From Anaerolinea sp. (lineage in GTDB: Bacteria > Chloroflexota > Anaerolineae > Anaerolineales > Anaerolineaceae): a stretch of DNA of 64,000 nucleotides. The position numbers and the translations under genes are program-made. The DNA lies in contig PNON01000001.1 in assembly GCA_013824865.1 (NCBI GenBank), forward strand, positions 39,291 to 103,290, given 5' to 3'. This document shows positions 10,984 through 51,970 of this stretch, in pieces. The notes below the pieces were generated by a model. The model saw only the letters and a list, made by a program, of their open reading frames with translations. It was not told where the DNA came from and did not search any database. Each line of letters starts with the position of its first letter. Positions within the stretch are counted from its first letter, which is position 1.

Positions 10984-13845
10984 CTAAGGTTTCGTTTCAT
11001 TCACATCAAAGACTTTTAAAACCTCATCCCCATAGTGATTGATGACCTTAACAGCGATCTTGCCCTTCGCTGGCGGGTCAAACGGCAGGCTTACGGTGCG
11101 ATACAATGCTAACCAGGCTTCTTCATTGATCTCCGCGCGCAATGCTCGTTTTAGTTTGTCATAAGGTTGGTCGGCACCGGTGAAGTAGGCGTGCCGGACG
11201 TAAAAGCTCTCGCCGTTATAGTCAGTGTCCACTAACCAGCAGGCGATCTCATCCGGCTTATTAGAACGTACTTCACCTGTAGTCGGGTCGTAGATATCCA
11301 CGCCCAACATTTCGACCACCACTTTACCGTCCTGTTTGGTGATCTTCACATCCGGTTCACCGAAGACCATGAACAGGTTTCCGGCACCAGTTTTCTTAAG
11401 CAGCCCCTCTTCCATCATCAGATCCGGGCTCATTCGCACAGGCAGCACTTGTAATGCCCCATAATTCTTGGTCTCTTCTCCAACATGTGGATCAAACGCA
11501 AACCCCAACATTACCAATAGATCAAAACCAATACCTTTGGATGCTTCTTTGGCGGCTTCACGGATCATATCCGGGGAGACGGTGCCATGTTCTGGGCCGA
11601 TGCAAACCGCCACCCGGCGCGGCTTACCGTCTGCGTCGTTATACTCCCCGCTGGCATGCAGCCATTCTCCAGCAGATGCATCCAACCGTGTGAAATGGAT
11701 GCGCTCATCACGGCGGGTATTTTGCACCCCAGCTTTACGTAGATTATCCAATATGCGCTGGTGGAAAGTGCTGCTGTTTTGGGTTTGGGCTTCTTTTTCA
11801 GATTCCGGGCGTTCTTCATCCATGGAGAGCATGCGGTGCGGTGAGAGACTCTCCACGGTGAACGGACCGGTGATCCGTACCCGTTTTTTGTCTTCATATG
11901 GTTTGTCATATAACAATTCTACGTCTGCCCGCTTGCCAATGCTGGCGTCGATCTCTTTCTGCCTATCCCGCCGCAGCTCCCACCACTTTAGAATCAAGCC
12001 CTCTCCTTCGGGGAGAGGGTGGGGTGAGGGTTTTGATGAGGTTTCTTGGGATGAGGGCACCCTTGGCATTTCCCATTCTTCCCAGGCTGTGCCATTCAGC
12101 CGGTTGATCTCTGCCCTCAGCGGCTCCATCTCTTCCTGCCAACGTGCATAAATGACATCGATCTCTTCATTATTGGCTATGGATTTGAGTGTGATGTGAG
12201 GTACGCGTTCATACACAAACCCTTTCCGGATATCGCCTTTCATCCCTTTAGCGGATTCTCCCTCTCCAAATTCACCGAATTTGGGGAGGGTTGGGGTGGG
12301 GCTGATCTCATTTTCTTTCTTTTTACCATCAACCGAATCTGCCAACTGATAATATGGGTAACGCCCGGACATCAATCGCGTGCGCGCCAGGGCAACAGCC
12401 ACCCGGCTTGTGTCGATAGTGATCCACCTTCTGCCCCACTGCTCTGCCACATAGGCGGTTGTACCGCTGCCGCATGTCGGGTCTAGTACCAGATCACCTG
12501 GGTCAGTGGTCATCAGCATGCATCGTTCAATAATTTTTGGGTTTGTTTGAACAACATATATTTTTTCGTCTCCAACAAAACCACCTTGTGATAAATCATC
12601 CCAGATATCAACAATTTGGTTGTACCCAAAGTCGGATAAGTATTGAGAATAACGAATATTTTGCCCTTTTATTCCTAGTCTATTAGCTTTCTTTAAATTA
12701 TTAATACCGGATTGGTTTGTGCGCCACCCCCCCCGATTAGGAATAAAAGAGCGATTATTAAAGGATATTGAAAATCTGCTACTTTCACCACCAGTTTGAG
12801 AAGTAAGATCAGATAAATTCAATAATCGTGAGCCATTTTCAAATTTCTGTTTTAACCCTTCTATTTCATTGTGGGTAATCGGAATAATTGAACCATCAGG
12901 ATATTCAATATATTGATATGAGGTCTTAACTGCTTGCCCTAACGAAATTTCTTTATAACATCTTCTGAATTTAATATTTTCTTTATTTTTTGCATACCAG
13001 AGAAGATAATCTACTGTTTCAGCTATTAAATCGGATGTTTGGCTTGTTGTTTTATAAACCTTAATAATTCTACAGAAATTTTCGCTCCCAAACACTTCAT
13101 CCATTACAGATCTCACAATGTGTACATTCTCGTCACCGATTTGCACAAAGATACTGCCACTCTCGGTCAACAATTCGCGGGCTACTGTCAACCGGTCACG
13201 TAGGTAAGCCAGATAACTATGAATACCCAGTTCCCAGGTATCGCGAAAGGCTTTGATCTGCTCCGGCTGGATGGTTACTTCTTCTTCCTTGCCGTCCTTT
13301 ACATCGCGTTTGCGAGTGCTCACCTGCCAGTTCGAACCAAATTTGATGCCATAAGGCGGGTCCAGGTAGATCATCTGAACCTTGCCCTTCAAATTCTCCT
13401 TCTCTGCTAGTGAAGTCATTACGAGTAGAGAATCCCCCAGGATCATGCGGTTGGTCCAGTTCTGTTCATGGTGATAAAAATCCACCAGGTCTTCAAATTC
13501 GATGTGGTTGAAATCACCAAACATATCGGGTTGGTACTCTTCACCCTCACCCTTGCCAGTTACATTGCCAGAGAAGGTTATAATATTCTCAATGATCGCC
13601 TGCGGCTCGATCTTTTCCTGGATATATACAGGCACAGCAGGAACCTCCAAAGGGTGCTGGTCTTGTTCATCCTTGCCGCGCCACACCAATTGTGGGTCCA
13701 GGCTGGGGTCGCGTGGGTAGAGGATAGTTTTAGGCTGCTTTTCTTCATCAGCAACGAACCCGCGCAGTTCTTCGGTCGGGATGTTGGTGCGTTTGTCCGC
13801 GTGACGGATAGAGGTTAAGGGGATGGTGATTTTAGGTTTGGGCAT
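10984..13845 (-). CDS. mod: type III restriction-modification system DNA methyltransferase (Mod)
   Basis: MIYLDPPYGIKFGSNWQ (DPPY motif), DLVLDPTCGSGTTAYVAEQWGRRWITIDTSR (SAM motif), long C-terminal domain; located next to res. Confidence 0.92.
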   Translation of the reverse strand: MPKPKITIPLTSIRHADKRTNIPTEELRGFVADEEKQPKTILYPRDPSLDPQLVWRGKDEQDQHPLEVPAVPVYIQEKIEPQAIIENIITFSGNVTGKGEGEEYQPDMFGDFNHIEFEDLVDFYHHEQNWTNRMILGDSLLVMTSLAEKENLKGKVQMIYLDPPYGIKFGSNWQVSTRKRDVKDGKEEEVTIQPEQIKAFRDTWELGIHSYLAYLRDRLTVARELLTESGSIFVQIGDENVHIVRSVMDEVFGSENFCRIIKVYKTTSQTSDLIAETVDYLLWYAKNKENIKFRRCYKEISLGQAVKTSYQYIEYPDGSIIPITHNEIEGLKQKFENGSRLLNLSDLTSQTGGESSRFSISFNNRSFIPNRGGWRTNQSGINNLKKANRLGIKGQNIRYSQYLSDFGYNQIVDIWDDLSQGGFVGDEKIYVVQTNPKIIERCMLMTTDPGDLVLDPTCGSGTTAYVAEQWGRRWITIDTSRVAVALARTRLMSGRYPYYQLADSVDGKKKENEISPTPTLPKFGEFGEGESAKGMKGDIRKGFVYERVPHITLKSIANNEEIDVIYARWQEEMEPLRAEINRLNGTAWEEWEMPRVPSSQETSSKPSPHPLPEGEGLILKWWELRRDRQKEIDASIGKRADVELLYDKPYEDKKRVRITGPFTVESLSPHRMLSMDEERPESEKEAQTQNSSTFHQRILDNLRKAGVQNTRRDERIHFTRLDASAGEWLHASGEYNDADGKPRRVAVCIGPEHGTVSPDMIREAAKEASKGIGFDLLVMLGFAFDPHVGEETKNYGALQVLPVRMSPDLMMEEGLLKKTGAGNLFMVFGEPDVKITKQDGKVVVEMLGVDIYDPTTGEVRSNKPDEIACWLVDTDYNGESFYVRHAYFTGADQPYDKLKRALRAEINEEAWLALYRTVSLPFDPPAKGKIAVKVINHYGDEVLKVFDVNETKP
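11998..12040. repeat. in-frame palindromic repeat inserted in mod (encodes PSPHPLPEGEGLI on the minus strand)
   Basis: ccctctccttcggggagagggtggggtgaggg, short inverted repeat, low-complexity peptide with no relation to Mod family. Confidence 0.6.
12258..12306. repeat. in-frame palindromic repeat inserted in mod (encodes SPTPTLPKFGEFGEGES on the minus strand)
   Basis: ctccctctccaaattcaccgaatttggggagggttggggtgggg; inner inverted repeat ccaaattcaccgaatttgg. Confidence 0.6.
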
Positions 13846-19640: not shown

Positions 19641-19916
19641 ATGAATAATTATACGGTCAATACCAGAGATGTGCGCAACCGGCTGCGTGAAGTGCTGGAT
19701 AGTGTCTACCTGCAGGATAAGGATGTGGTCATCGAGCGTAATGGCAAAGCCATTGCCGCCATCATTCCAGTGGAAGACTACCTGGCGCTACAGGAGGAGT
19801 TGGAAGACTTGCGTGCCGGACGTGTTGCTGACCTTGCATATACCAGCTGGAAAAACCAGCCTCAAAATGCTGTTACCCTGCAAGATTTCGAAGCCAGTTT
19901 GAAAAGAGATGAGTGA
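19641..19916 (+). CDS. type II toxin-antitoxin antitoxin, Phd/YefM family
   Basis: MNNYTVNTRDVRNRLREVLDSVYLQDKDVVIERNGKAIAAIIPVEDYLALQEELE. Confidence 0.9.
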   Translation: MNNYTVNTRDVRNRLREVLDSVYLQDKDVVIERNGKAIAAIIPVEDYLALQEELEDLRAGRVADLAYTSWKNQPQNAVTLQDFEASLKRDE

Positions 19917-20187
19917 AGTTCGCTGGCAGGTAAGGCTTCTCAAAGGACCGCAGAAAATCCTGCGCAAGCTGCCGGCAGATGCTCGCAACCGGCTGCTTGT
20001 GGTTTTACATCAGCTTGAGGTTAATGCCTATCCAGAAGGTTGTAAGAAACTCACCGGTTATGAGCATTTTTACCGCATCCGCGCGGGAGATTGGCGCATT
20101 ATTTACAGCGTAGAATCGGGTGAATTGGTCATCCTCGTATTGGAAATTGGGGCTCGTGGTGGAGTCTATAAGAATTTAGAAAAGTAG
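19909..20187 (+). CDS. type II toxin-antitoxin toxin, RelE/ParE family
   Basis: VRLLKGPQKILRKLPADARNRLLVVLHQLE...GCKKLTGYEHFYRIRAGDWRIIYSVESGELVILVLEIGARGGVYKNL; overlaps antitoxin. Confidence 0.9.
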   Translation: MSEVRWQVRLLKGPQKILRKLPADARNRLLVVLHQLEVNAYPEGCKKLTGYEHFYRIRAGDWRIIYSVESGELVILVLEIGARGGVYKNLEK

Positions 20188-22486: not shown

Positions 22487-22577
22487 GGTTTATATAGTAT
22501 ACGATAAGAAAGGATTGATAAAGATAGCCTATTATAGTTTATAAATTTTTATTGATAGAAATTAGTCACTCATAAAC

Positions 22578-22608
22578 AACGAACCTCCCTATCAAAGGAA
22601 GGTTCGTT
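22578..22608 (-). terminator. hairpin downstream of the cytochrome cluster
   Basis: AACGAACCT...AGGTTCGTT 9-bp perfect arms, just below the frame-restored stop at 22617-22619. Confidence 0.55.
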
Positions 22609-22616
22609 GATCGAAT

Positions 22617-23799
22617 CTACTTTTCTGGCGCGCCGGCCAGTATCCAGGCTTTCAAGGCATCCAGCTCTTCAAGCGAGAGCTGCCCGGGGTGGCCGCCGGC
22701 TTCCATGATCTGGATAACCAGGCTGGCAGCCGGGTCACCAATGGTAAAGGCTTGCCCTTTAGCCACCATTCACCGCGTCCGCGTAAGTGGCCAGGGATAA
22801 ATCGCCAGAAGCGCCGTGACACATTCCGCATTTCTGCTGCATCAAAACGCCGATTCCTCCATCCCAGGTGGTGAGGTCAAGGTCGGTTTCCTGAGGTTTA
22901 TTGGGGTTCATATTCAGGGTTACAACAGTGGGCGTGGCAGTGGGTATGGGTGTCGGGATGCTGGTGGCGAGGACCTGAACCTGTTCAGCCGGTGGCAAGG
23001 TGGAGATGGCAGTAGTCTCAACCGTGACGAAGAAATAGATGCCGACCAGGGAAGCGAGGGAGAACACTGCAGCTATTGGAAAGAAAATAGAGCGGCGTTT
23101 CTTGATGACTTCAGGTGGAAAGGAGAATTTTCCGACCCCGGCTTTGATTTTTTCCAGCTCCAGGGCGTGATCTTCTTCCATCTCGTGGTGTTCTAGTTTG
23201 CCGTTGAATATGGATTTATTGAAGCGCTTGGAGTGAACATGGTAGAAGTGCCAGACGAGGATAGCCAGCACTGCCAGCACGGATTCACCGCCGTGGGCAG
23301 CTTTGGCTGCCGGGATGAAGACACCGGGCAGGAGATGGGCAGTCACGATCGGGTTCCAAAGCATGAAACCTGTGATGGCCATCACTGCGCCGCCCCACAT
23401 CAATGCCCAGTATTCAGCTTTCTCATCGAATGTGTAACGGCCTTGTTTTGGGCGGGATTTTTTCAGCCCGAAATTGTAACCAAAAGCCTGGATGCCATCT
23501 TTTACATCTTTAATGCCGGGAAGCATGGTCATTTCTGCGCATTCCACATAGGATTTGTAACCGATCAACACGAAATGGTAGATGATCTCGAACAGGAAGA
23601 TGGTGGCGGACACGCGGTGAATGATGCGCATCGCACTGATACCGCCAAATACCTGGATCAGCCATAGGGAAATATCCACGTTGATATATTTCTGCACCAG
23701 GCCAGTAATGGCGAGGGTGGTAAAAGAAAGGAACAGCAAGAGATGCTCAATACGTTGAGCTACCGGAAAGCGTTCGTAGGAAGAGGGTTTGTCGCTCAT
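22617..23799 (-). pseudogene. cytochrome b561-like membrane subunit with C-terminal cytochrome c domain, interrupted near its 3' end by an apparent frameshift (main ORF 22759..23799)
   Basis: YERFPVAQRIEHLLLFLSFTTLAITGLVQKY...ISAMRIIHRVSATIFLFEIIYHF...HGGESVLAVLAILVWHFYHVHSKRFN; CGMCHGASGDLSLATYADAVNGG then stop; next frame continues AKGQAFTIGDPAASLVIQIMEAGGHPGQLSLEELDALKAWILAGAPEK*. Confidence 0.8.
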
Positions 23800-24995
23800 G
23801 ATTCCTTCACTCCTTTGCGCTTATCGATCAAGCGGCGGATATAGTCGGAAATTACATATAAAGCCATGACACCAATCACCAGCGGGATCATGATCTTATA
23901 AAAGAGATTTACGTAGAATACAAGCGGAGCTTTAGTGGGGCTGGCAGTGTAATGGCTCATCCATGAGGCGGGGAAGTTTTCACTGGCATCCGGGTGACAC
24001 TTCTGGCAGGTCTTCAGCAAATTGCTCTTGATGTGCAGGCCGTTGGCAGGGGCATCTGAACGGGTCATATTATGGACACCATGGCAATCGATACACACCG
24101 GGGTGTTGGTTTGCTGATCGGGGGCTGTTTTTTCAAAGATGGTCACTGTTGTGCCATGGAAGTCTGCGATATAGGTGCTGTTGACTTTGGAGGAAAGACC
24201 ATACTTATCCATTAGTGCTTTATCAGCGTGGCATTTAGAACAAATACCAGGTGAGCGGAGACGGAAGGCATTATCGATGGCGGAAACATTGTGCACGCTG
24301 TGGCAATCTATGCAGGTGGGGGTGTCGATGTTGCCTTCCAGCAGCAGGCTGGATCCGTGCACAGAGCCTTTGTATTGCCCATAGATCTCGTTGTGGCATT
24401 TGGAACAGGTGAGGGGAATATTCACCCGTGCCTCTCCCAGGGTGTTGCCATTCTTATCCACCAGCAGGGTCTGGGTATGCGGATTGTGACAATCGGTGCA
24501 GGCCGGGGCGAGCACATTACCGGCTTCATGAGCCTGCATGTGGATGCTGTCTTTCACAGCAGCATACTGTTCTGCGTGACATTGCTGGCAGGCCTGGGTG
24601 GCTTCAAAACTGAATTCTTTATGAGTATCGATGGTCAACTCAGGATGGGGATAGCCAGTAATGGATATATGGCAAGTGGTGCAGGGTAAACCCTGATTAC
24701 CGTGCACTGTCTGTTGATATAACCCGCCATCAATACTGATCGATAGTTTTTCACCATCGGGGAGAGTTGTGATCAACCCGGGTTTACCATGACATCCCAG
24801 GCAGGCAGAATCTGATAGCTCAGCCGCTGATAATTGGAGATTGTCTGGCGCTTGCGCAAGAGCTGGTCCTGCCACGGCAGTACTATTGGGTAGGAATGCC
24901 GTGCCGATCAACACGAGGGCAATAAAAACCCCTGCGATGATCCAGGGTAAGTGGAATGGGTTTGGATGTTTTCCCTTCATAATTCGATTCTCCAT
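23796..24995 (-). CDS. membrane-anchored multiheme cytochrome c (9 CXXCH)
   Basis: CLGCH, CTTCH, CQQCH, CTDCH, CSKCH, CIDCH, CSKCH, CIDCH, CQKCH; N-terminal signal/anchor and C-terminal TM helix. Confidence 0.88.
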   Translation of the reverse strand: MENRIMKGKHPNPFHLPWIIAGVFIALVLIGTAFLPNSTAVAGPALAQAPDNLQLSAAELSDSACLGCHGKPGLITTLPDGEKLSISIDGGLYQQTVHGNQGLPCTTCHISITGYPHPELTIDTHKEFSFEATQACQQCHAEQYAAVKDSIHMQAHEAGNVLAPACTDCHNPHTQTLLVDKNGNTLGEARVNIPLTCSKCHNEIYGQYKGSVHGSSLLLEGNIDTPTCIDCHSVHNVSAIDNAFRLRSPGICSKCHADKALMDKYGLSSKVNSTYIADFHGTTVTIFEKTAPDQQTNTPVCIDCHGVHNMTRSDAPANGLHIKSNLLKTCQKCHPDASENFPASWMSHYTASPTKAPLVFYVNLFYKIMIPLVIGVMALYVISDYIRRLIDKRKGVKES

Positions 24996-25112
24996 GCTTC
25001 AAGATGGAATTATTAAAACTGGATTAATTATAACGAGTTTTACAGATTAATCCTCATAAGAATACAAATCCAGGCAAATTATGACAATAATATGATTTTC
25101 ATCGGGGGAACA

Positions 25113-25144
25113 TAAAAAGCGGTGGTTTTTCAGGCCACCGCTTT
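25113..25144 (-). terminator. rho-independent terminator of the decaheme gene
   Basis: Minus strand AAAGCGGTGG-cctgaaaaa-CCACCGCTTTTTA: 10-bp stem then T run. Confidence 0.8.
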
Positions 25145-25165
25145 GTACAGCAGAAAGGCATAAAA

Positions 25166-27376
25166 TTACGGACGGGTCATCCCGGTAACATCACCACCCA
25201 GGTCTTCAATGGCATCATACAGAGCTTGCATAACGTAAACGCCATTATGGATTCCAACACCCGGATCCTTGTAGGAGAAGTGCAGGTTGAAAGCAGCTTC
25301 CACCAAGCGGGGCGAGAAGACATAACGTACCTTGGCGCCTTTGTCATCTTTATCAGCAGCGCCATCTCCGTCTGCATCCGCATAGAAGTATGGGCGGGAG
25401 TCGGTATCGTACATAATACCCACACCCAGGGAGTCGGTGGCATAGGCTTGAATAGCAGCATACAGCTTCTCCTGGAAGCCAGCAACTTCGCCCATCAGAC
25501 CTTCGGTGGTATTGCCATCGCCATCATAATCGACGGCATCACCTGGTGCACGCAGGTCTTCCAATACATCGGTGCCATGGCAGCCTTTGCAGGTTTCGAT
25601 CTTGACTTTCAGAGTATGAACATTGTGGCAGTTGGCACAGGTGGTAAAACCATCCACATGCGTGAACTTGCCAGCATATTCCTTGTCAGGATACTGGAAC
25701 ATTCCGCCAGCATCGGCGCCGAACAAGGTTGCACCGGCGCTAAAGTAGTGAACATTCTGGAAGCTGATAGTTTTATCTGCGGTATCTGCTTCTTTACCAG
25801 CGACAGACAGGGATACAGTCTTGCCGGATTGGCGGCCCTGGTGGCAGGAGAGGCAGATGTTGTTGGGATCAGCGATATTCTTGCCATCAGCATCCTTGGC
25901 GAAACTAACGCTCTTGCCACTTGGGAAAGGTACATTTGCGGTTTCCCGAATGTTAGGCCAGTTGGCAGGATCGTGGCAGGTGTAGCAAGTAAAGCTGTTG
26001 GAGATGGGTTGAGCACCGATACCACTTTGCAGAACTGAACCCGTGGGGGAGATGGACACTGTACCACCGTTCTTCAGGAATTCCGGCAGTCCAGTTGCGC
26101 TGTGGCACTTGGCACAGTTGAATGGAACTTCGCCATCAGCATCCCAATCGCGGAAGGGAAGGCTGGCGCCATCAAAGTGACCGGCATCAGCGCGGGTAAG
26201 GGTGCTTACATCACCGCCCAAATCAGCGATTGAATCGATGAGCAGCTGGACAATGTACTTGTTGCCATGTGCAAAAGCGCCGGGATCTTTAACAGATACC
26301 TGGTAGTTATAGGCAGCTTTCAACAGTCGGGCAGTCCAAGTTGAAAATGCTACATTAGCGCCGTCTTTCTGGTCAATAACGCCATCACCATCGACATCTG
26401 CAAACCAGTAAGGATAGGCGGCGGCATCGTACACAATAGCCGCACCAGCTTTATCCTTGGCATAGGCCTGCATCTGGGCGTAAAGGTTAACCTGGAGACC
26501 TTCGATCTCAAAGGCCATGCCTTCTGCTACATCGCCATCGCCATCATAATCGCCACTTGAGCTGACCATGCGGATATTCTTCAGGTCTTCCGTTTTGGCA
26601 ACGCCTTCGTGGCATACGGAGCACTTATCCACTTTGACTTCAAGAGAGTGACTGTCATGGCAGTCGATACAGGTAGTATAACCATCGATATGGCCAAATT
26701 TCCAATCGTAGGTTTTACCTTCGTATTCATATCCGCCATGAACCTGACTGCCATATAATGTTGCTGCTGCAGCAAAGTAGTGAATATTACGGAAGCCGAA
26801 CCGGACATCTTTACCGGCATCATCTTTGATTGGTGCGACAACAGCATCAATATCTTCGATAGCAAATTTCTCGATCTGAGCGTCAACACTTACTTTGGAC
26901 TCGCGACCCTGGTGGCAGGACATGCATAATGCTTCGCGGCCCAGGTCTTCGATAACAACACCGGATGGGAAGCTTACGGCGGTCATTTCCAGCGAAGTCT
27001 CATTGTGGCAAGCAGTGCAATTGATTCCCTGGGCATTCGCAGCAGGTACTGCTGTTTCAACAGTGCCTTTAGCCTGGAATTCGATGAATCCATCTGCACT
27101 GTGGCATTTAGCGCAAGTAACCGGCACTTTAGCAGGGTCGCTCGCGTCCCAATGACGGAAGACTTCACTTTCCACAGCGTTGTGGCCGGATGCAGCCCAC
27201 ATCTCGGCGAATGGTACTTCTGGGGAGGCAGGAGCTTCTGCTACAGGTACCTCCACTACGGGCACCTCAGCAACGGGTGCTTCTGCGGTTGGCGCAACTG
27301 CGGGTGTGCAGGCGGCAACAACCATGGCTAAGCCCAGTATCAATCCTACTATTAATAATGTTCTCTTCATTGACAT
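25166..27376 (-). CDS. decaheme c-type cytochrome lipoprotein with internal duplication (2 x 5 CXXCH)
   Basis: Lipobox LGLAMVVAACTP; CAKCH CTACH CMSCH CIDCH CSVCH / CAKCH CYTCH CLSCH CANCH CKGCH; halves align across their length. Confidence 0.88.
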   Translation of the reverse strand: MSMKRTLLIVGLILGLAMVVAACTPAVAPTAEAPVAEVPVVEVPVAEAPASPEVPFAEMWAASGHNAVESEVFRHWDASDPAKVPVTCAKCHSADGFIEFQAKGTVETAVPAANAQGINCTACHNETSLEMTAVSFPSGVVIEDLGREALCMSCHQGRESKVSVDAQIEKFAIEDIDAVVAPIKDDAGKDVRFGFRNIHYFAAAATLYGSQVHGGYEYEGKTYDWKFGHIDGYTTCIDCHDSHSLEVKVDKCSVCHEGVAKTEDLKNIRMVSSSGDYDGDGDVAEGMAFEIEGLQVNLYAQMQAYAKDKAGAAIVYDAAAYPYWFADVDGDGVIDQKDGANVAFSTWTARLLKAAYNYQVSVKDPGAFAHGNKYIVQLLIDSIADLGGDVSTLTRADAGHFDGASLPFRDWDADGEVPFNCAKCHSATGLPEFLKNGGTVSISPTGSVLQSGIGAQPISNSFTCYTCHDPANWPNIRETANVPFPSGKSVSFAKDADGKNIADPNNICLSCHQGRQSGKTVSLSVAGKEADTADKTISFQNVHYFSAGATLFGADAGGMFQYPDKEYAGKFTHVDGFTTCANCHNVHTLKVKIETCKGCHGTDVLEDLRAPGDAVDYDGDGNTTEGLMGEVAGFQEKLYAAIQAYATDSLGVGIMYDTDSRPYFYADADGDGAADKDDKGAKVRYVFSPRLVEAAFNLHFSYKDPGVGIHNGVYVMQALYDAIEDLGGDVTGMTRP

Positions 27377-27729: not shown

Positions 27730-28206
27730 ATGCAGCGAAAATTCATCATTGGCGGGATTCTCATCCTGGCAGCCATTGTTTACCTGATTATTTCATCATC
27801 CCAGGCCAATGCGCAATATTTTTTGACGGTGGAAGAATTGGAAGCAAAAAAGCAGGAGATGTCCGGGCGTGAGTTACGAATTTCTGGCGCAGTGATTGGT
27901 GATTCGATCCAGTTTGATCCTAAAACCCTGGCTCTGTCTTTTGATATCGTCCATATCCCTGGTGACAACACGGAAATTGAAAAACTGGGCGGACTGGCGG
28001 AAGTTCTGCACCAAGCGGTAGTGGATACTTCCCGTCCACGACTGCAGGTTGTTTATAATGGTCCCAGGCCAGACTTGCTTAAAAATGAAGCTCAAGCCAT
28101 CATCACCGGGACACTCGATGAAGCCGGGGTTTTCCATGCAGAAGAACTGTTGCTAAAATGCCCAACCCGTTATGATGAAGCCGTACCCGCACAGGTGGAG
28201 AATTGA
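27730..28206 (+). CDS. ccmE: cytochrome c maturation protein CcmE (Cys-type, CXXXY)
   Basis: KFIIGGILILAAIVYLI, LRISGAVIGDSIQFDP, ARPDLLKNEAQAIITGTLDEAGVFHAEELLLKCPTRYDE. Confidence 0.88.
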   Translation: MQRKFIIGGILILAAIVYLIISSSQANAQYFLTVEELEAKKQEMSGRELRISGAVIGDSIQFDPKTLALSFDIVHIPGDNTEIEKLGGLAEVLHQAVVDTSRPRLQVVYNGPRPDLLKNEAQAIITGTLDEAGVFHAEELLLKCPTRYDEAVPAQVEN

Positions 28207-28298
28207 TCCTTGCCTGCGTCAAGATACTTACTCTGGAATAGCAGCCGTGAAAACGACTGCTATCCTTTTGATTAAAGAAACAGAACACTGGAGTTCTT

Positions 28299-30317
28299 AT
28301 GACTGTTGAGTTAGGTTTTGGAGTGCTCGTCCTCACGCTGATTGTAACGCTGTATGGAGTAGTGGCTGCCATTATTGGAGTCAGCCGTAAAGACCAACGC
28401 TGGATTGATTCTGCCAGGTATGCTTCGCTGCTCATTTTTCCATTGCTCACCCTGGTGGTTATCGCCATACTCTACCTGATCGTCACCGGGCATTACGAGG
28501 TGGCATATGTTTATTCCGTTTCCAGCAATGCCACGCCACTCTACTTGAAGCTAACTGCATTGTGGGGCGGTCAGGCAGGTTCGTTGATCTTCTGGAGCTG
28601 GTTGATGTCTGCCTTCACCTCTGCGGTGATGCTGCGCAAATGGAATCGGGACCGTGAATTTTTACCGTGGGTGATCGTGGTGACCTTAGTTACCCTGGTG
28701 TTCTTCCTTGTCATGTCCATTTTTTTTGAAAACCCCTTCAACCGCTTCTGGGCTACCCCCATGGGTGATCGGATTGAAGCGATGTTCCCCCCGGCTGGAT
28801 CAGACCTGTTATTACCAGCTGACGGGCGTGGTCTCAACCCGCTGCTGAGACATCCGGGTATGATCATTCACCCACCCATGCTTTACCTGGGTTTTGTCTC
28901 ATTTGTTATTCCATTTGCGTTTGCCATTGCAGCGCTCATCACCGGAAGAACCGATGACCGTTGGATCCGCATCACCCGCCGCTGGACGCTGGTAGCCTGG
29001 TTGTTTCTGACGATCGGTCTAGTGCTGGGGATGCGCTGGGCGTATGATGTATTGGGGTGGGGGGGGTACTGGGGTTGGGATCCGGTGGAGATTGCTGCCT
29101 TAATGCCCTGGCTGACCGGTACCGCGCTGCTACATTCGGTGATGATACAGGAAAAGCGCGGTATGTTCAAGCAGTGGAATATGCTGCTGGTCATCCTGAC
29201 TTACGACCTGGTGATCTACGGCACCTTTCTGACCCGTTCAGGGGTGCTCTCATCGGTACATGCCTTCGCGCAGAGCGCGATTGGTCCGCTATTCTTTGCA
29301 TTTATCTCGCTGACTTTGATCGTCTCTATCTGGCTTTTACTGCTGCGCTGGAAGAGTCTGCGTTCCGAAGGGCAACTACAGTCACTGCTCTCGCGTGAAA
29401 CGCTGTTTCTGGTGAACAACCTGCTCTTCCTGGGGCTTTTTATAGAATGTTTCTGGGGAGTGAATTTCCCGCTGCTTTCGGAACTGGTGACCGGGCAAAA
29501 GGTAACTTTTGGCCCAGCCTGGTACATCCGTGCCACAGGGCCGTTGTGGGGCGGGCTGTTGCTTCTGATGGGAATTGCCCCGCTATCTGCCTGGCAAATT
29601 TCCACATATAAAACATTGGGCAAAGCATTCTGGAAACCCTTTATTTTCTCACTCCTGGCAGTCGCGGCTGCTCTGGCACTCAAGGTGCGGGAGGCTGGGG
29701 CGCTCATTGGTTTCTGGTTGGTGGCGCTGGCATTCGCGGTTACATTGTATGAGTACTGGCGCGGAATCCGCGCGCGCCACAACAGCACAGGCGAGAACTG
29801 GCTGAAATCCATCTGGCACCTGACTGGAAAAAACCGCCGGCGCTATGGTGGTTACATCATCCATCTCGGGGTCATCCTGATGGCGATTGGCGTCATCGGT
29901 ATCGAAGCCTTCCAGACGCAAACTCAGGGGGCATTGACTCCCGGTCAGAGCCTGGAATTGGGAGACTATTCAGTGAAATATCAGTCACTGGCAGAATGGG
30001 ACACCAGGGACGGCAAGAATATTACCCGCGCAGTGATGGAAGTAAGCAAGAATGGCAGAGTGCTTCAGGAAGTTTATCCAAGGCGGGATTATTATTATGA
30101 TTCACAGCAACCCATGACTATTCCAGGTTTGCGCAGCACGATGGTGGACGATATCTATGTTATCCTTGTGGACTGGGAGCCAATTTCTTCCAGACAGGCG
30201 ACATTTAAGGTCTTTCACAATCCGCTGGTGAACTGGTTATGGGTGGGAACCATTGTTTTGATACTTGGTTCTATCATCGCTGTTTGGCCATCCACCGAGA
30301 GAGAACCTGCGAAATAG
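28299..30317 (+). CDS. ccmF: cytochrome c heme lyase CcmF
   Basis: LTALWGGQAGSLIFWSWLMSAFT, LNPLLRHPGMIIHPPMLYLGFV, WAYDVLGWGGYWGWDPVEIAALMPWLTGTALLHS, FLTRSGVLSSVHAF. Confidence 0.95.
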   Translation: MTVELGFGVLVLTLIVTLYGVVAAIIGVSRKDQRWIDSARYASLLIFPLLTLVVIAILYLIVTGHYEVAYVYSVSSNATPLYLKLTALWGGQAGSLIFWSWLMSAFTSAVMLRKWNRDREFLPWVIVVTLVTLVFFLVMSIFFENPFNRFWATPMGDRIEAMFPPAGSDLLLPADGRGLNPLLRHPGMIIHPPMLYLGFVSFVIPFAFAIAALITGRTDDRWIRITRRWTLVAWLFLTIGLVLGMRWAYDVLGWGGYWGWDPVEIAALMPWLTGTALLHSVMIQEKRGMFKQWNMLLVILTYDLVIYGTFLTRSGVLSSVHAFAQSAIGPLFFAFISLTLIVSIWLLLLRWKSLRSEGQLQSLLSRETLFLVNNLLFLGLFIECFWGVNFPLLSELVTGQKVTFGPAWYIRATGPLWGGLLLLMGIAPLSAWQISTYKTLGKAFWKPFIFSLLAVAAALALKVREAGALIGFWLVALAFAVTLYEYWRGIRARHNSTGENWLKSIWHLTGKNRRRYGGYIIHLGVILMAIGVIGIEAFQTQTQGALTPGQSLELGDYSVKYQSLAEWDTRDGKNITRAVMEVSKNGRVLQEVYPRRDYYYDSQQPMTIPGLRSTMVDDIYVILVDWEPISSRQATFKVFHNPLVNWLWVGTIVLILGSIIAVWPSTEREPAK

Positions 30318-30327
30318 GAGCTGAATA

Positions 30328-30819
30328 ATGGCAAAGAAAGCGTTTGTATTCGTTTTGCTGGCTGTGACCTTTTTCGCCAATCTACAGACAGCGGCAGTTT
30401 TTGCGCAGGAAAAGACACCTGTAACTGATGATGACGTGAACGAGGTAGCGCGGCAGTTGTATTGCCCGGTATGCGAGAATATTTCGCTGGATGTCTGTCC
30501 GACCCAGGCTTGCGAACAATGGCGCAGTCTGATCCGTGAAAAGCTGGAGGCGGGCTGGACGACAGAGCAGATTAATAGCTATTTCGCGACGCAATATGGT
30601 GACCGTGTTCTGGCAGAACCGCCCAAAAAAGGAATTAACTGGCTGGTTTATATTTTACCGCCGGCGATGATCATCGCGGGGGCTGTACTTCTCGCCCGGA
30701 CCATTACAAGGCTGCGAGCACCGAAGAAAAATATTGCATCAGTTTCACGAACTGCCGACACCTCAGGAGATAAATACCTCACCCGGGTGGAAGAAGAATT
30801 GAAGAAACGGAAAGGATAG
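30328..30819 (+). CDS. ccmH: cytochrome c maturation protein CcmH-like
   Basis: VNEVARQLYCPVCENISLDVCPTQACEQWRSLIREKLEAGWTTEQINSYFATQYGDRVLAEPPKKGINWLVYILPP. Confidence 0.9.
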   Translation: MAKKAFVFVLLAVTFFANLQTAAVFAQEKTPVTDDDVNEVARQLYCPVCENISLDVCPTQACEQWRSLIREKLEAGWTTEQINSYFATQYGDRVLAEPPKKGINWLVYILPPAMIIAGAVLLARTITRLRAPKKNIASVSRTADTSGDKYLTRVEEELKKRKG

Positions 30820-30822
30820 TAG

Positions 30823-31392
30823 ATGACGCAACCTTCCCCGATTGAGCCACTTGAAATAGAGAGTAAATCCAGCGCGCCAACTGCTGTTTTTGTCTTTGTT
30901 GGTGTCATTCTGCTGGCTTTTCTGGGTTTTCTGTATATGGGACTGCAGCGCAGTCAGCAAGGACCGGTAAAGGTCGGCGACCCCATGCCCCCCATCGTGT
31001 TGACCACTTTTGATGGCGACCCAATTGACACATCAGCAGAAAAAGGGAAAGTCGTCCTGGTCAATTTTTGGGCTTCATGGTGCAAACCATGTGAAAGTGA
31101 AGCTGCTGCCTTGCAGGAAGCCTGGGAATACTATCAACCGGGGGGGCAGGTGCTGTTTATTGGCGTGGACTATGTAGATACCGAGCCGGAAGCTTTGGAA
31201 TCGCTAGAGAAGTACAGCATAACATACCCCAATGGACCGGATCTGGGGACAAAGATCTCACAGATGTTCCGCATCACTGGAGTCCCGGAAACCTTTATCA
31301 TTGACCGGGATGGTAACCTGGCTTACATCCAGATCGGTCCGTTCGGCTCCACCGATCAAATCAAATCCCTGATCGACCCCTTACTGCAATAG
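30823..31392 (+). CDS. thioredoxin-like protein CcmG/DsbE/TlpA
   Basis: VNFWASWCKPCESEAAALQEAWEYY...FRITGVPETFIIDRDGNL. Confidence 0.9.
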   Translation: MTQPSPIEPLEIESKSSAPTAVFVFVGVILLAFLGFLYMGLQRSQQGPVKVGDPMPPIVLTTFDGDPIDTSAEKGKVVLVNFWASWCKPCESEAAALQEAWEYYQPGGQVLFIGVDYVDTEPEALESLEKYSITYPNGPDLGTKISQMFRITGVPETFIIDRDGNLAYIQIGPFGSTDQIKSLIDPLLQ

Positions 31393-31425
31393 TTTCTAAA
31401 TTCTACATGAAAGGCAATAAGCATT

Positions 31426-31932
31426 ATGGATATCACATCAGTCTTGTTGATCCTCACGGTGGCTTTGCTCGCCACGGCTTTCATTTTCCGGCCTTTCATC
31501 AGTAGAAAAAATTGGAAAACCAGCAAAAATGAGAACCCGGAGCATGTGAACAAAGATCATGATTATTCGTCATTATTGGCTGAAAAAGAACGCATCCTTT
31601 CAGCTATCGAGGAGTTGGATTTCGACAATAAGTTAAACAAAGTACCTGAAGACCTATACCCTATCCAACGTGCTGAGTTCATGAATCGTGCTGCTGAAGT
31701 ATTGAAAGCGCTGGATGAGATGGGTGTGGGTCGGGATGAAACTGTAGGAATGACAGCCAGCAAATACAGTCCTGACAATGGTGAGTATGACGAAGTGGAA
31801 GCTTTGATTGCCAAGCGACGTGGTGAAGTCAAGGTGAAAGGGAAAAGCTTTTGCCCGCATTGCGGTCAGCCAGCTCAGGCTTCTGACCGGTTCTGTCCAA
31901 AATGCGGCAAACTTGTTCGATCATCAGCCTGA
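31426..31932 (+). CDS. membrane-anchored zinc-ribbon protein in ccm operon (CcmI-like N-terminus)
   Basis: N-terminal TM, LLAEKERILSAIEELDFDNKLNKVPEDLY, C-terminal FCPHCGQPAQASDRFCPKCGKLV. Confidence 0.75.
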   Translation: MDITSVLLILTVALLATAFIFRPFISRKNWKTSKNENPEHVNKDHDYSSLLAEKERILSAIEELDFDNKLNKVPEDLYPIQRAEFMNRAAEVLKALDEMGVGRDETVGMTASKYSPDNGEYDEVEALIAKRRGEVKVKGKSFCPHCGQPAQASDRFCPKCGKLVRSSA

Positions 31933-31954
31933 AACAGGGATCTATAAGGAAAGT

Positions 31955-33844
31955 ATGAAGAAACTCACATCTATCATTTTCATTACCTTGTTGGTTTTAC
32001 TGACAGGCTGCAATACCTCTCTGGCTGGGGATATCAAACCCCCCGCTGATTACACGCCCCCAGCAGTGCTGCCCCCAGCAGCGACCGCAGTCGTTTATCC
32101 CCTCGTTCCGCCCGACCCTGTGGCTGGTGAGACAGTGTATGCTGAGTACTGCGCTTCCTGTCATGGTGAAAAGGGCAACGGAGTCGGGCAGAAGGCAGGC
32201 AATTCCGCTAGCTCTCCAGCGGCGCTTGCCCATCCCGAGACTTTGCGCAATGCCATCCCGCAGGACTGGTTTGCGGTGATCAAGGATGGCAGCGGATCCA
32301 TGCCAGGTTTTGCTACCAAACTGGATGACCGGGCTAACTGGAATGTGGTAGCTTATTTGCTTTCGATGGAAAATACGCTGGAACAGATGAGCATTGGCGC
32401 AGAAATCTTCTATGCAGTTTGCAGCCAGTGCCACGGAGTGGGAGGCAATGGGAATGGTAAGCGGGCAACAACGCTGGCTGTGACACCGGCAGATTTTACC
32501 GACCTGAGCTTGATGTCAGCCATCTCCAACCAGGGTATGGAGGATATCCTTTCCGGTGGTATCGGAGAAGCAATGCCAGCTTTTGGAAATATGTTATCGG
32601 AAGATGAAAGGTGGGCTGCGATCGGCTATATCCGTTCGCTTTCGTTTGCTCCGGTCGCAATGGCGAATGATTCCACAGTTGTGGATGACACACCAGACCC
32701 TGATGCACCTATTAATGTCGAGGTCACACCGATCTTGGAAACTACCCCCGTGGTTAAGCTTGTGACCATTACCGGCAGGATTATTAATGACTCCAGCAAC
32801 ACAGGCTCAAGTGGTTTGAAAGTGACCTTGCTGATTTTTGATAATATGCAGCAATCCTCATCTCTTGATACCATCGCAGATAAGAATGGTGAATTCAGGT
32901 TTGAAGGTGTTGAAATGCCGACTGGCCGCATTTTCATTGCATCGGTGGATTATGGCGGACAATCCTTCTCTTCTCAACCTTCGATGCATCCTGGTGTGGT
33001 GGTGGATGAGACTCAGACTGAACTGGACCTGCCTGTGCACATTTATGACGCCACGACCGATGTCAGTGTGGTCTCTGCTGACCGGCTGCACATCTTCATG
33101 GATTTCCGATCACCAGGTATTGTGCAGGTGGTCGCGTTATACCTGATCTCCAACCATTCCGACCAGGTAGTGACTGCATCAACTCCTGGCGAAGGTGTAT
33201 TGGAATTCAAATTGCCAGAAGGAGCAGCCAACTTGCAGTTTCAGGATAGTGAGTTAGGAGGGCGGTATATTGCGACTGAGCAAGGGTTTGCAGATACCGC
33301 TCCGGTGATGCCAGGTGAGGCATCGCACCAGGTACTGTTTATGTTCGACCTGCCTTATACTTCACGACTGAAATTAAGCATGCCAGTCTCAATTAACATC
33401 GAATCCATTAACGTAATGATCCCGGTGGGTAATATCAAACTAAAAAGCAGTCAACTGGAGGATGCAGGCATGCGGGAAAACCAGGGAATGAGCTTTAATC
33501 TGTTCACTGGCGGGGCAGTAGCTGCTGGCGGAAGCCTGGAAATAACCGTAACAGGGAAATCTGGTACTCAGAACACAACAGATTCACAGGGTAAGGTGAA
33601 TCCGATCCTGCTCGGTCCGGGAATATTCCTCCTCGCGGCATGTGGTGTGGGACTGTATTTCTATCAACAGGGGAAAAAACCTGTCGCAGAAGGTGAGATG
33701 GCAGATACAAACCTGAAAGATAAAGAGTCCGTGATGGACGCCATCATTGCCCTTGATCTCCTACATAATGAGGGTAAGATAATGAATGGCGTGTACCAAA
33801 TCAGGCGTGAAGAATTAAAGAATAAACTTAAGGGCATGATGTGA
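31955..33844 (+). CDS. di-heme c-type cytochrome lipoprotein with C-terminal membrane segment
   Basis: LLTGCNTSLAGDIKPPADYTPP; CASCHGEKGNGVG and CSQCHGVGGNGNGKRAT; C-terminal TM and EGKIMNGVYQIRREELKNKLKG tail. Confidence 0.85.
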   Translation: MKKLTSIIFITLLVLLTGCNTSLAGDIKPPADYTPPAVLPPAATAVVYPLVPPDPVAGETVYAEYCASCHGEKGNGVGQKAGNSASSPAALAHPETLRNAIPQDWFAVIKDGSGSMPGFATKLDDRANWNVVAYLLSMENTLEQMSIGAEIFYAVCSQCHGVGGNGNGKRATTLAVTPADFTDLSLMSAISNQGMEDILSGGIGEAMPAFGNMLSEDERWAAIGYIRSLSFAPVAMANDSTVVDDTPDPDAPINVEVTPILETTPVVKLVTITGRIINDSSNTGSSGLKVTLLIFDNMQQSSSLDTIADKNGEFRFEGVEMPTGRIFIASVDYGGQSFSSQPSMHPGVVVDETQTELDLPVHIYDATTDVSVVSADRLHIFMDFRSPGIVQVVALYLISNHSDQVVTASTPGEGVLEFKLPEGAANLQFQDSELGGRYIATEQGFADTAPVMPGEASHQVLFMFDLPYTSRLKLSMPVSINIESINVMIPVGNIKLKSSQLEDAGMRENQGMSFNLFTGGAVAAGGSLEITVTGKSGTQNTTDSQGKVNPILLGPGIFLLAACGVGLYFYQQGKKPVAEGEMADTNLKDKESVMDAIIALDLLHNEGKIMNGVYQIRREELKNKLKGMM

Positions 33845-34542
33845 TCCAGGTTCAGGGGCTGATCAAACGTTTCGGACCCAAGACTATCCTTAACAAGCTT
33901 TCACTTGAGGTCAAGGATGGCGAGTTCGTCGCGTTGATTGGTCCAAACGGGGCAGGGAAGACCACCCTGCTGCGCATTCTCTGTTCCCTTTCCAAACCTT
34001 CCCTTGGAGTGGTGAGCGTGGCGGGTTTCAAATTACCGGGACAGGCTGCCAGTGTTCGACAACGATTGGGGGTGGTCTCTCATATGCCGCTTTTATATGG
34101 CGACCTGACAGCTGCAGAAAACCTGGTTTTTTACGGGCGATTGTATTGTGTGCCGAATCTGGCAAGCAGGGTGGAGCAGGTGTTGGAACTGGTGGGCTTA
34201 TCAAACCGCTGTGGAGACCTGGTGCGCACCTTCTCGCGCGGGATGCAACAACGGCTGGCGATTGGCCGGGCAGTTTTACATGACCCGGAAGTGCTGCTGT
34301 TGGATGAGCCGCATACCGGCCTGGATCAAGATGCCTGCGACATGCTGGACAGGGTGTTGCGGGATGTCGCTGTTCAGGGGCGGACAGTGCTCATGACTTC
34401 GCATGATTTTTTGCGGGTGCAAAATCTGGCTACCCGTTTTGATGTGCTGACTAAGGGCAGGATCGTAGCTTCCACGGAAAGTGCTGATCTCTCTCAAGAC
34501 GGACTGCAGGCTTTTTACCGCCAAGCGCTGGAGCAGGTATGA
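33841..34542 (+). CDS. ccmA: heme ABC exporter ATP-binding protein CcmA
   Basis: Walker A GPNGAGKTTLLRIL, FSRGMQQRLAIGRAVLHDPEVLLLDEPHTGLD; GTG start overlaps upstream stop. Confidence 0.92.
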   Translation: MIQVQGLIKRFGPKTILNKLSLEVKDGEFVALIGPNGAGKTTLLRILCSLSKPSLGVVSVAGFKLPGQAASVRQRLGVVSHMPLLYGDLTAAENLVFYGRLYCVPNLASRVEQVLELVGLSNRCGDLVRTFSRGMQQRLAIGRAVLHDPEVLLLDEPHTGLDQDACDMLDRVLRDVAVQGRTVLMTSHDFLRVQNLATRFDVLTKGRIVASTESADLSQDGLQAFYRQALEQV

Positions 34543-35228
34543 AACAGAATACCTGTCCATCGTTCATTAAAGCAACGCTGGCTGTGGTCTGGAAAGACCT
34601 GACAGCTGAACTGCGCAGCCGGGAAATATTTTCAGCCATGTTCATCTTTGCCCTGCTGGTGGTGGTAATCTTTAATTTCGCGCTGGAATTGGAAGCTGGT
34701 ACACGAGCATCCATCACTTCCGGGGTGTTGTGGGTCACATTCACCTTTGCCGGCACTATTGGCTTGAACCGGTCCATGGCGCAGGAGAAAGACCGTGGAT
34801 GTATGGATGGGTTGTTGATGGCACCGGTTGATCGGAGTGCCATTTACCTGGGCAAGATGCTCGGCAACCTGCTTTTCATGATCGCGGTTGAAATTGTCAT
34901 CATTCCGCTGTTCAGCGTTTTGTACAATGTCAATCTGATCAATGGCGGATTGCTATTGGTCGTACTTCTAGGTTCGATTGGATATTCCGCAGTGGGTACA
35001 TTGCTGGCCAGCATGTCTGTGCAAACCCGCACACGGGACATGCTGCTACCGATCCTGCTCTTCCCGGTGGTCATTCCGTTGATCGTGGCAGCGGTGAAAG
35101 CTTCATCAGGTTATATTTCAGCGATGCAGATGGAAGAGATTACACCCTGGTTGAACCTGTTGATCGTATATGATGTCATCTTCCTGTCTGTTGCGTGGAT
35201 GGTATTTGACTACGTGGTGGAAGAGTAA
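34539..35228 (+). CDS. ccmB: heme exporter protein CcmB
   Basis: VWKDLTAELRSREIFSAMFIFALLVVVIFNFAL...GTLLASMSVQTRTRDMLLPILLFPVVIPLIVAAVKAS. Confidence 0.93.
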   Translation: MKQNTCPSFIKATLAVVWKDLTAELRSREIFSAMFIFALLVVVIFNFALELEAGTRASITSGVLWVTFTFAGTIGLNRSMAQEKDRGCMDGLLMAPVDRSAIYLGKMLGNLLFMIAVEIVIIPLFSVLYNVNLINGGLLLVVLLGSIGYSAVGTLLASMSVQTRTRDMLLPILLFPVVIPLIVAAVKASSGYISAMQMEEITPWLNLLIVYDVIFLSVAWMVFDYVVEE

Positions 35229-35275
35229 TTGGTAAAGAGAATCGAGATTCGAGAAACGAGATGAGAGAATAACCC

Positions 35276-35971
35276 ATGAAAAAACTGGATAGTAAATTAA
35301 CCATGTTCGATATTGTCACCGGCTTGCTTATGGCTGCTGCCGCTGGAATGGTGTTCTTCTATGCTCCGATTGAAATCGTTATGGGCTATGTGCAAAAAGT
35401 TTTTTACTTCCATGTGGCCAGCGCCTGGGTGGGCATGTTGAGTTTTATTGTGGCAGCCGTGGCGGGAGTCATCTACCTTAAGAAAAGGAGCGGCATCTGG
35501 GATATTGTCAGCTACGCAGCAGTCGAGATCGGCATTTTGTTCGCACTGATCACCATCATCACCGGCTCCATCTGGGCGCGGCCGATCTGGAATACGTGGT
35601 GGACCTGGGATCCGCGTCTGACAACGACCACGATCATGGCACTGGTGTATGTGGCTTACTTGATGCTGAGACAGGGTATTGACGACCCGGAGAAACGGGC
35701 ACGCTTTGGTGCAGTATATGTGATCATTGGCGCATTATCGGTACCGCTCACCTTCCTGTCTATTCGCATATTCCGAACGATCCACCCGGTAGTCATTGCA
35801 GCTCCAACCGCCACCTCGGCAGCGTTCGAGATGGCGCCCAAGATGCTGCAAACTTTTCTGTTCAGCTTGTTTGTATTCTCGGTGTTTTTCGTAGATCTCT
35901 TATGGCACCGAATCAAGTTGGGGAAGCTGGAAGCTGAAGTGGAACACCTGAAGATGGATGCAGGCGAGTAA
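35276..35971 (+). CDS. ccmC: heme exporter protein CcmC
   Basis: QKVFYFHVASAWVGMLSFIVAAVAGVIYL...GSIWARPIWNTWWTWDPRLTTTTIMALVYVAYLMLR (WWTWDPRLT). Confidence 0.95.
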   Translation: MKKLDSKLTMFDIVTGLLMAAAAGMVFFYAPIEIVMGYVQKVFYFHVASAWVGMLSFIVAAVAGVIYLKKRSGIWDIVSYAAVEIGILFALITIITGSIWARPIWNTWWTWDPRLTTTTIMALVYVAYLMLRQGIDDPEKRARFGAVYVIIGALSVPLTFLSIRIFRTIHPVVIAAPTATSAAFEMAPKMLQTFLFSLFVFSVFFVDLLWHRIKLGKLEAEVEHLKMDAGE

Positions 35972-51800: not shown

Positions 51801-51970
51801 TCGGGCGCGCCGCAATCAATATGCTTTGGGTCATTCGAGGCTTTGATGCCAGGCTGGTAACTTTCCAACAGGGCTTCCAGTGATGAGCGGTGGGTGTGCT
51901 CGGTGGCAATCCCGCGTTTTAAGTCCGCTTCGATTTTCTTCAAATAATCCCGGATTTCTGTATCCAACAT
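48845..51970 (-). CDS. type ISP / IIG-like restriction-modification fusion enzyme (PD-(D/E)XK nuclease plus N6-adenine methyltransferase)
   Basis: N-term CGAPDFIVERRKVPLGYVETKDVG (PD...ETK); RGVYYTPEPVVRFIVNSVDWIL; ILDPAAGTGTFLYFVLR; VVLGNPPYSYES (NPPY). Confidence 0.9.
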   Translation of the reverse strand: MLDTEIRDYLKKIEADLKRGIATEHTHRSSLEALLESYQPGIKASNDPKHIDCGAPDFIVERRKVPLGYVETKDVGVDLDKIEKTDQMKRYTKALNNLILTDYLEFRWYVNGKERLRVKVAEVGKNNRLIIHDENISQTAKLLQGFFDVEVPMLFTAKDLAQRMAHMAHFMRDLILADLKNEMDEKGALHRQFNAFKEYLLPNLTPAEFADLYAQTMAYGLFAARVAMPDGQLFNRASAYTYLGTNKFLRRLFLDVGEELDGSIIASYLDDLAELLKRANLVTILADFGKRTRTEDPVVHFYETFLAAYDPKLRKSRGVYYTPEPVVRFIVNSVDWILREKFGKPLGLADPEVNILDPAAGTGTFLYFVLRLVHERMRERGQFGQWQDYVHNHLLPRIFGFELLMAPYVMSHLKLGLQLKEELGYAWQKDDQLKVYLTNTLDEGVTKSEMLDGLAHYITDEANAAAVVKKQTPIMVVLGNPPYSYESINNGPWISELVKDYYKIDGIRLNERNLKGLQDDYIKFIRFAEWRINKTSCGILAFITNHNYIDGPTFKGLRKHLNKSFDELYIFDLHGNSKKKEVCPDGSKDENVFDIQQGVAIILGIKNKLENDSPSTKIFHHEIWGRRNEKYVALQSVDISCINWTITEPQEPYWLFKPQNLLNSSEYLKLMNIQDIFPVNSVGIVTSRDELAIHMEKTEAIKTITKFMDLPIEEARQVFNLGQDSRDWKISLAQADLRKSRLNSDNFIRITYRPFDNRFTFFTGHSRGFHSMPRPSVMCQMREENLALITSRINKGEEFAHIFATVFTTEKIILSSKTSNNGYHFPLYLYTNPYETKGTLFDLVETTRKPNLSQAFITSASRALGLVFIEDGQGDLVSTFGPEDVFYYTYAVFHSPTYRSRYAEFLKIDFPRLPLTSNLPLFKTLVRLGKELVDFHLLRTPRVEQFITGYPVAGDHLVEKVQYTSGNVWINPKQYFEGVPEEVWKFKIGGYQVCDKWLKDRKGRKLSGEDINHYQRVVVALKETIRLMAEVDVAIPGWPMD

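Follow-up and report, generated by a model that had tools for sequence, protein, structure and literature searches.

Where would the electrons go that a cluster of three multiheme cytochrome genes handles in Anaerolinea sp., when no catalytic subunit is encoded within the cluster? The cluster lies in a window of 64,000 nucleotides (contig PNON01000001.1 of assembly GCA_013824865.1, positions 39,291 to 103,290; coordinates below are those of the window), and an earlier note had proposed it as a candidate conduit for extracellular electron transfer (EET). We consider it probable that its products form a membrane-to-surface chain of about 22 hemes, which would carry electrons from menaquinol to an extracellular partner. 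The layout described in that note was recovered in full: three minus-strand genes of the same orientation lie where it had placed them (Table 1), and encode a membrane cytochrome b of the Ni_hydr_CYTB/FdnI type, a membrane-anchored protein of 399 aa with nine CXXCH motifs, an N-terminal signal or anchor and a C-terminal transmembrane helix (the nonaheme), and a lipoprotein of 736 aa with ten CXXCH motifs and a VAAC lipobox (the decaheme). In 2000 shuffles of the nonaheme and the decaheme the mean motif counts were 0.04 and 0.02 (maxima 2 and 1), and every motif histidine is invariant across 37 nonaheme and 69 decaheme sequences.

We examined the membrane end of the putative chain by comparing the cytochrome b with known quinone-reactive subunits. 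The cytochrome b open reading frame (22759-23799, 346 aa) carries PF01292 (E 1.9e-10, 41.3 bits against a cut-off of 30.1), and a profile of 35 sequences matches FdnI, the gamma subunit of formate dehydrogenase-N (PDB 1kqf_C), at 8e-18. The histidines that we take to be the b-heme ligands of FdnI (H18, H57, H155 and H169) align to H19, H61, H169 and H184 of the cytochrome b, all of them invariant. Fold and diheme ligands are thus shared with FdnI, whereas the FdnG and FdnH partners are missing here and a fifth helix and a c-heme tail have been added. This tail is where the assembly is at odds with the gene: the frame breaks near 22760 (22740-22770), inside the mono-heme domain, and the sequence continues to 22617 in another frame, where it is up to 60% identical to the mono-heme domains at the C-termini of relatives. 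A strong hairpin terminator follows directly (Table 1), so that the end at 22617 proposed earlier fits the gene even though the open reading frame stops at 22759. PSCyt1 was found in the cytochrome b tail of an intact relative, and of 43 cytochrome b genes, 17 have a tail bearing CXXCH. The break is either genuine or a fault of the assembly.

The nonaheme gene overlaps the cytochrome b gene by 4 bp, and the same two-gene split is seen in relatives. Apart from the motif histidines, exactly nine histidines are invariant in the 37 nonaheme sequences, i.e., one per heme, and hydropathy assigns five helices to the cytochrome b and one to the nonaheme C-terminus, making six over the two chains. Among 301 sampled Chloroflexota genomes, all those with a nonaheme also have the cytochrome b. 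In a count by gene order, the cytochrome b comes directly after the nonaheme in 41 of 45 cases. The nonaheme profile matches OcwA and NrfA-family chains; its AlphaFold2 model (pLDDT 76, helix at 357-393) had no fold match in the PDB, and the fold was not used. In several relatives (L088, L099, L101, L103, L119, L122 and L126) nonaheme homologs have grown to 14-15 hemes, and these enlarged forms mostly adjoin an octaheme related to a collagen-like one, together with a decaheme.

These properties resemble those published for Geobacter CbcL, in which nine bis-histidine c-hemes are joined to a six-helix diheme HydC/FdnI domain (PMC9129911, PMC6295460). Like CbcL, MtoC and MtrH, the bc pair combines nine c-hemes, each with one or more additional conserved histidines, with a diheme b part of the FdnI/HydC kind; it totals six membrane helices, places the c-part ahead of the b-part and lacks a molybdopterin subunit. 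Unlike them, it is divided between two overlapping genes instead of forming a single c+b polypeptide, and its cytochrome b has a CXXCH tail. Since the single-chain feature is lacking and the likeness is drawn from CbcL's published description only, we propose that the pair works like CbcL rather than that it is CbcL. Separate c- and b-type genes are also the arrangement of CbcBA (Geobacter, Seep-SRB2), a bc quinol complex to which we likewise compare the pair by description only. A 2018 survey did not list CbcL-type homologs for Chloroflexi (PMC6295460); split versions may have been overlooked there.

The putative outer end of the chain is the decaheme, whose two halves are copies of one pentaheme module (Table 1). 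A tree of modules separates N copies on one side from C copies on the other, so that one old duplication accounts for the decaheme family; single-module pentahemes (L052-L054) stand at the base of the N side, and a three-module relative with 15 hemes is found at L133. In the AlphaFold2 model (pLDDT 92.5, pTM 0.87) three long helices close each module, and Foldseek with this model returned OcwA first (probability 1.00, E 0.014, TM-score 0.23-0.34), with NrfA, octaheme nitrite reductase and MccA next in rank. The module profile reaches NrfA at 6e-6, and hhalign of the module with the NrfA of the same genome (93.5%, E 2.4e-7) pairs five hemes in order. NrfA CYACK aligns on decaheme CAKCH, which places heme 1 on the catalytic heme, and the histidines of NrfA STHY, DIHS and HNPEY align to H229, H243 and H370, the last corresponding to an HNPxY-like motif. 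Unlike NrfA, the decaheme is duplicated and lipid-anchored, and CXXCK is absent, all ten of its motifs being CXXCH; the tyrosine segment after NrfA heme 3 is replaced by CHQGR, and QHPE is without a histidine counterpart. Conversely, H199 and H543 are invariant in the decaheme, have no counterpart in NrfA and could close the former active site at hemes 1 and 6.

The same alignment might instead describe a double NrfA-like reductase of a soluble substrate that receives electrons from the bc pair and in which hemes 1 and 6 are open as in OcwA. The ordered hemes with heme 1 on the catalytic one, the NrfA-type three-helix ends of the model and an R409 that is invariant in module C are what such an enzyme would display, and OcwA itself combines two open hemes with weak nitrite activity (PMC6703420). 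We nevertheless regard it as unlikely, given that the CXXCK lysine has given way to CXXCH in both modules, that neither the QHPE segment nor the one following heme 3 is conserved, that H199 and H543 could close the two hemes, and that the genome already has a genuine NrfHA. Clear homology to a characterized soluble-substrate reductase had been named in the earlier note as the finding that would refute a conduit; what exists is a remote NrfA kinship of each decaheme half, from which the lysine and the post-heme-3 tyrosine segment are gone. Because OcwA keeps open hemes despite sufficient histidines (PMC6703420), closure of hemes 1 and 6 is not proven by the histidine count, and our proposal that all ten decaheme hemes are bis-histidine is weakened by this.

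OcwA, the surface terminal reductase of Thermincola (PMC6703420; PDB 6i5b), is a multiheme protein of a Gram-positive surface with an NrfA-superfamily fold, and the decaheme is probably similar in these respects. It differs in being built of a c554-like part and a pentaheme, with nine hemes of which two are penta-coordinate, as opposed to ten hemes in two like modules, and it has no clear sequence match with the decaheme. Filament cytochromes were absent from the decaheme's fold matches and OmcS was reached by sequence at E 0.25 only, so the nanowire polymer, for which the earlier note had proposed a structure check, was dropped for lack of homology or fold match to OmcS, OmcE, OmcZ and similar proteins. 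A surface cytochrome with this fold arrangement was not found in the open-licence PMC literature. We tentatively propose, at somewhat less than even confidence, a new terminal class, independent of MtrC, OmcS and OcwA: a duplicated NrfA fold (5, 10 or 15 hemes), lysine-less and lipid-anchored, forming the outer end of split-CbcL/ImcH-type export in single-membrane Anaerolineae.

Several further observations concern the decaheme family. Conserved D-x-D-G-D loops (EF-hand or dockerin-like) at the helical end of each module, at 26510-26550, 26350-26410, 25490-25530 and 25330-25390, are possible calcium sites. The single-pentaheme versions lie beside a ferric-reductase-like FAD/NAD flavocytochrome (L052:9336-12064, L053:7890-10541, L054:6237-8717), and the nonaheme was not found in these family members. 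The repeats preceding the fifteen-heme gene (L133:3336-7166, on a contig labelled Myxococcales) appear Ig-like by eye. Members of the family also occur in contigs labelled Acidimicrobiia (L094, L098, L100), and horizontal transfer is possible.

We then asked which genes accompany the decaheme elsewhere. Relatives are encoded in at least 273 public stretches, mostly from Anaerolineae among the matches listed. Within the class, 15 genomes have both decaheme and nonaheme, two and two have only one of them and 19 have neither (Fisher p 1e-6, uncorrected for shared ancestry), so that the nonaheme is present in 15 of the 17 decaheme genomes. Neighbours were counted at 47 decaheme loci flanked on either side by 4 kb or more: the bc pair is present in 30, a heptaheme with a NapC-like start in 26, and an NrfD gene, usually with octaheme and iron-sulfur (FeS) genes, in 19; 41 loci have one or more of these quinol modules, and no conserved soluble partner gene was detected in the loci. 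The heptaheme resembles ImcH, the high-potential menaquinol oxidase of Geobacter, in having a CX3CH motif by the membrane helix and six CX2CH motifs (CX3CH precedes the first CX2CH in 34 of 34 heptaheme open reading frames), and differs in mostly having one transmembrane helix and in its extra PSCyt1 heme. In Geobacter, EET draws on ImcH as its high-potential and on CbcL as its low-potential quinol oxidase (PMC12307469), and the presence of analogues of both beside one surface decaheme is therefore the strongest contextual argument for EET.

The draft genome (2.1 Mb, 57 contigs, 86% complete), which belongs to an uncultured bacterium that its named relatives place in the order Anaerolineales, is consistent with a single-membrane anaerobe that reduces menaquinone, assumed here from its group, with H2 or NADH: it encodes NuoG and NuoH and a membrane-linked Hyb-like NiFe hydrogenase with FeS and NrfD-type subunits (L142:5154-10535), and at this completeness neither Omp85 nor a heme-copper oxidase was detected. 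NrfD was found only with this hydrogenase, and the ImcH-like module had no match in the genome. The earlier observation that no catalytic subunit is apparent holds for the cluster, whereas an NrfH and NrfA (CYACK) pair, an ammonia-forming nitrite reductase with its own quinol dehydrogenase, lies about 47 kb away on the same contig (L141:5333-7161). A molybdopterin, sulfite or hydroxylamine partner was also considered and rejected, none being present in the cluster and the two PF00384 matches of the genome corresponding to NuoG and a NuoG/HoxU-like protein.

The direction of electron flow could be the opposite of the one we favour. Menaquinone reduction is the native role of FdnI, and electrons from an extracellular donor (a partner cell, Fe(II) or a cathode) might enter through the decaheme to reduce menaquinone, with NrfHA as a sink in the genome. 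Reverse operation of CbcBA has been proposed in syntrophic Seep-SRB2 (PMC10553843), and Fe(II) oxidisers have CbcL-type homologs (PMC6295460). In contrast, the ImcH-like modules linked in relatives have so far been reported from Fe(III) reducers only (PMC6295460), and both complex I and a quinone-reducing hydrogenase are encoded in the genome; we consider such an inward chain quite unlikely. A further explanation would confine the proteins to the envelope. Multiheme pools are able to act as capacitors, and the cluster could be a charge store or a relay to envelope partners such as NrfHA or peroxide and nitric oxide defence, never reaching extracellular substrates; the lipoprotein could remain near the membrane, and no wall-crossing motif was identified. 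We judge this very unlikely, since NrfA has its own NrfH, the loci are without a conserved soluble partner gene and, as we infer, a conserved surface-anchored array of ten (up to 15) hemes exceeds what a local relay would need.

Taken as a menaquinol-to-surface conduit, the cluster would work as follows. The FdnI-type cytochrome b would exchange electrons with the menaquinone pool and move them across the membrane via its two b-hemes, its five helices and the one of the nonaheme rebuilding the six-helix diheme membrane part of CbcL. The nonaheme, held at the outer membrane face by its C-terminal helix, would take up the electrons on nine bis-histidine c-hemes, and the flexible mono-heme tail may relay them. 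The decaheme lipoprotein, in which the catalytic heme of the NrfA-fold pentaheme would have been turned into an ordinary CXXCH heme, would lie outside the single-membrane cell and prolong the wire into, or past, the cell wall, towards an extracellular acceptor or donor (a mineral, humic substances, an electrode or a partner cell). Family, ligand and synteny evidence supports the steps from cytochrome b to nonaheme, while the outside location of the decaheme is suggested by its lipobox and by the fact that no outer-membrane marker was detected. Downstream of the decaheme gene, a hairpin and U run suggest that the gene is a transcription unit of its own, and the divergent ccm cluster (Table 1), whose genes adjoin the decaheme in several relatives too, is plausibly the heme-attachment machinery for these proteins.

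A number of points weigh against this conduit. The fold match to OcwA is remote, the histidine count leaves closure of hemes 1 and 6 without proof given the OcwA precedent, this assembly has a break in the cytochrome b frame, and genomic absences are weak at the completeness reached. In addition, two decaheme genomes have no nonaheme, several nonaheme carriers outside the class have no decaheme, and EET by carriers of the cluster is a prediction from their genes. The EET proposal of the earlier note is thus partly supported, as a quinol-to-multiheme-to-surface path, by protein families, conserved heme ligands and recurrent linkage to quinol modules, whereas menaquinol oxidation, surface exposure, the extracellular partner and its function, and the direction of the electrons are what we infer from them.

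Table 1 Features of the multiheme cluster and its surroundings (window coordinates).
Feature	Coordinates	Strand	Evidence
Decaheme c-type lipoprotein, 736 aa, two tandem pentaheme modules	25166..27376	-	10 CXXCH and lipobox, 69-sequence alignment, AlphaFold2, Foldseek, hhalign
Pentaheme module N, residues 60-398	26183..27199	-	38% identity to module C, E 1e-74
Pentaheme module C, residues 399-736	25169..26182	-	module comparison, hhalign, tree
Hairpin and U run 3' of decaheme, probable intrinsic terminator	25111..25148	-	minimum free energy -16.4 kcal/mol, z -4.0
Nonaheme c-type cytochrome, 399 aa, C-terminal transmembrane helix, CbcL c-domain-like	23796..24995	-	9 CXXCH, invariant His, profile, AlphaFold2
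Diheme cytochrome b, FdnI-type; mono-heme c domain (PSCyt1-type) at the C-terminus; frame break near 22760	22617..23799	-	PF01292, FdnI profile, tail homology
Hairpin terminator directly past frame-shifted cytochrome b end	22574..22609	-	minimum free energy -22.7 kcal/mol, z -5.5
Divergent ccm cluster (CcmE, CcmF, CcmH-like, thioredoxin-like, CcmABC-like) and cytochrome c gene	27730..35971	+	CcmE, CcmF by Pfam; others by position and sequence

Elsewhere in the window, a small gene pair at 19641-20187 looks by eye like a Phd/RelE-type toxin-antitoxin system, and DNA methylase genes are found at 10984-13845 and 48845-51970, the second encoding a type ISP restriction-modification enzyme (PF18135).

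Reports place Anaerolineae on anodes and in iron-reducing environments. Multiheme cytochromes abound in their genomes, yet their outward electron route has not been established (PMC7399161). The cluster supplies named and linked candidate EET genes that are widespread in public genomes. Relative to the open-licence PMC literature, the new elements are a CbcL-like oxidase in two genes and a terminal cytochrome of unreported fold arrangement. Our data suggest that Chloroflexi do have CbcL-type oxidases, which had been counted as missing from them (PMC6295460), but with the parts divided between two genes, and the decaheme offers a case of a nitrite-reductase fold apparently turned into an electron-conducting array. 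Together, the cluster suggests a possible way for these common anaerobes to 'breathe' onto solids or partner cells.

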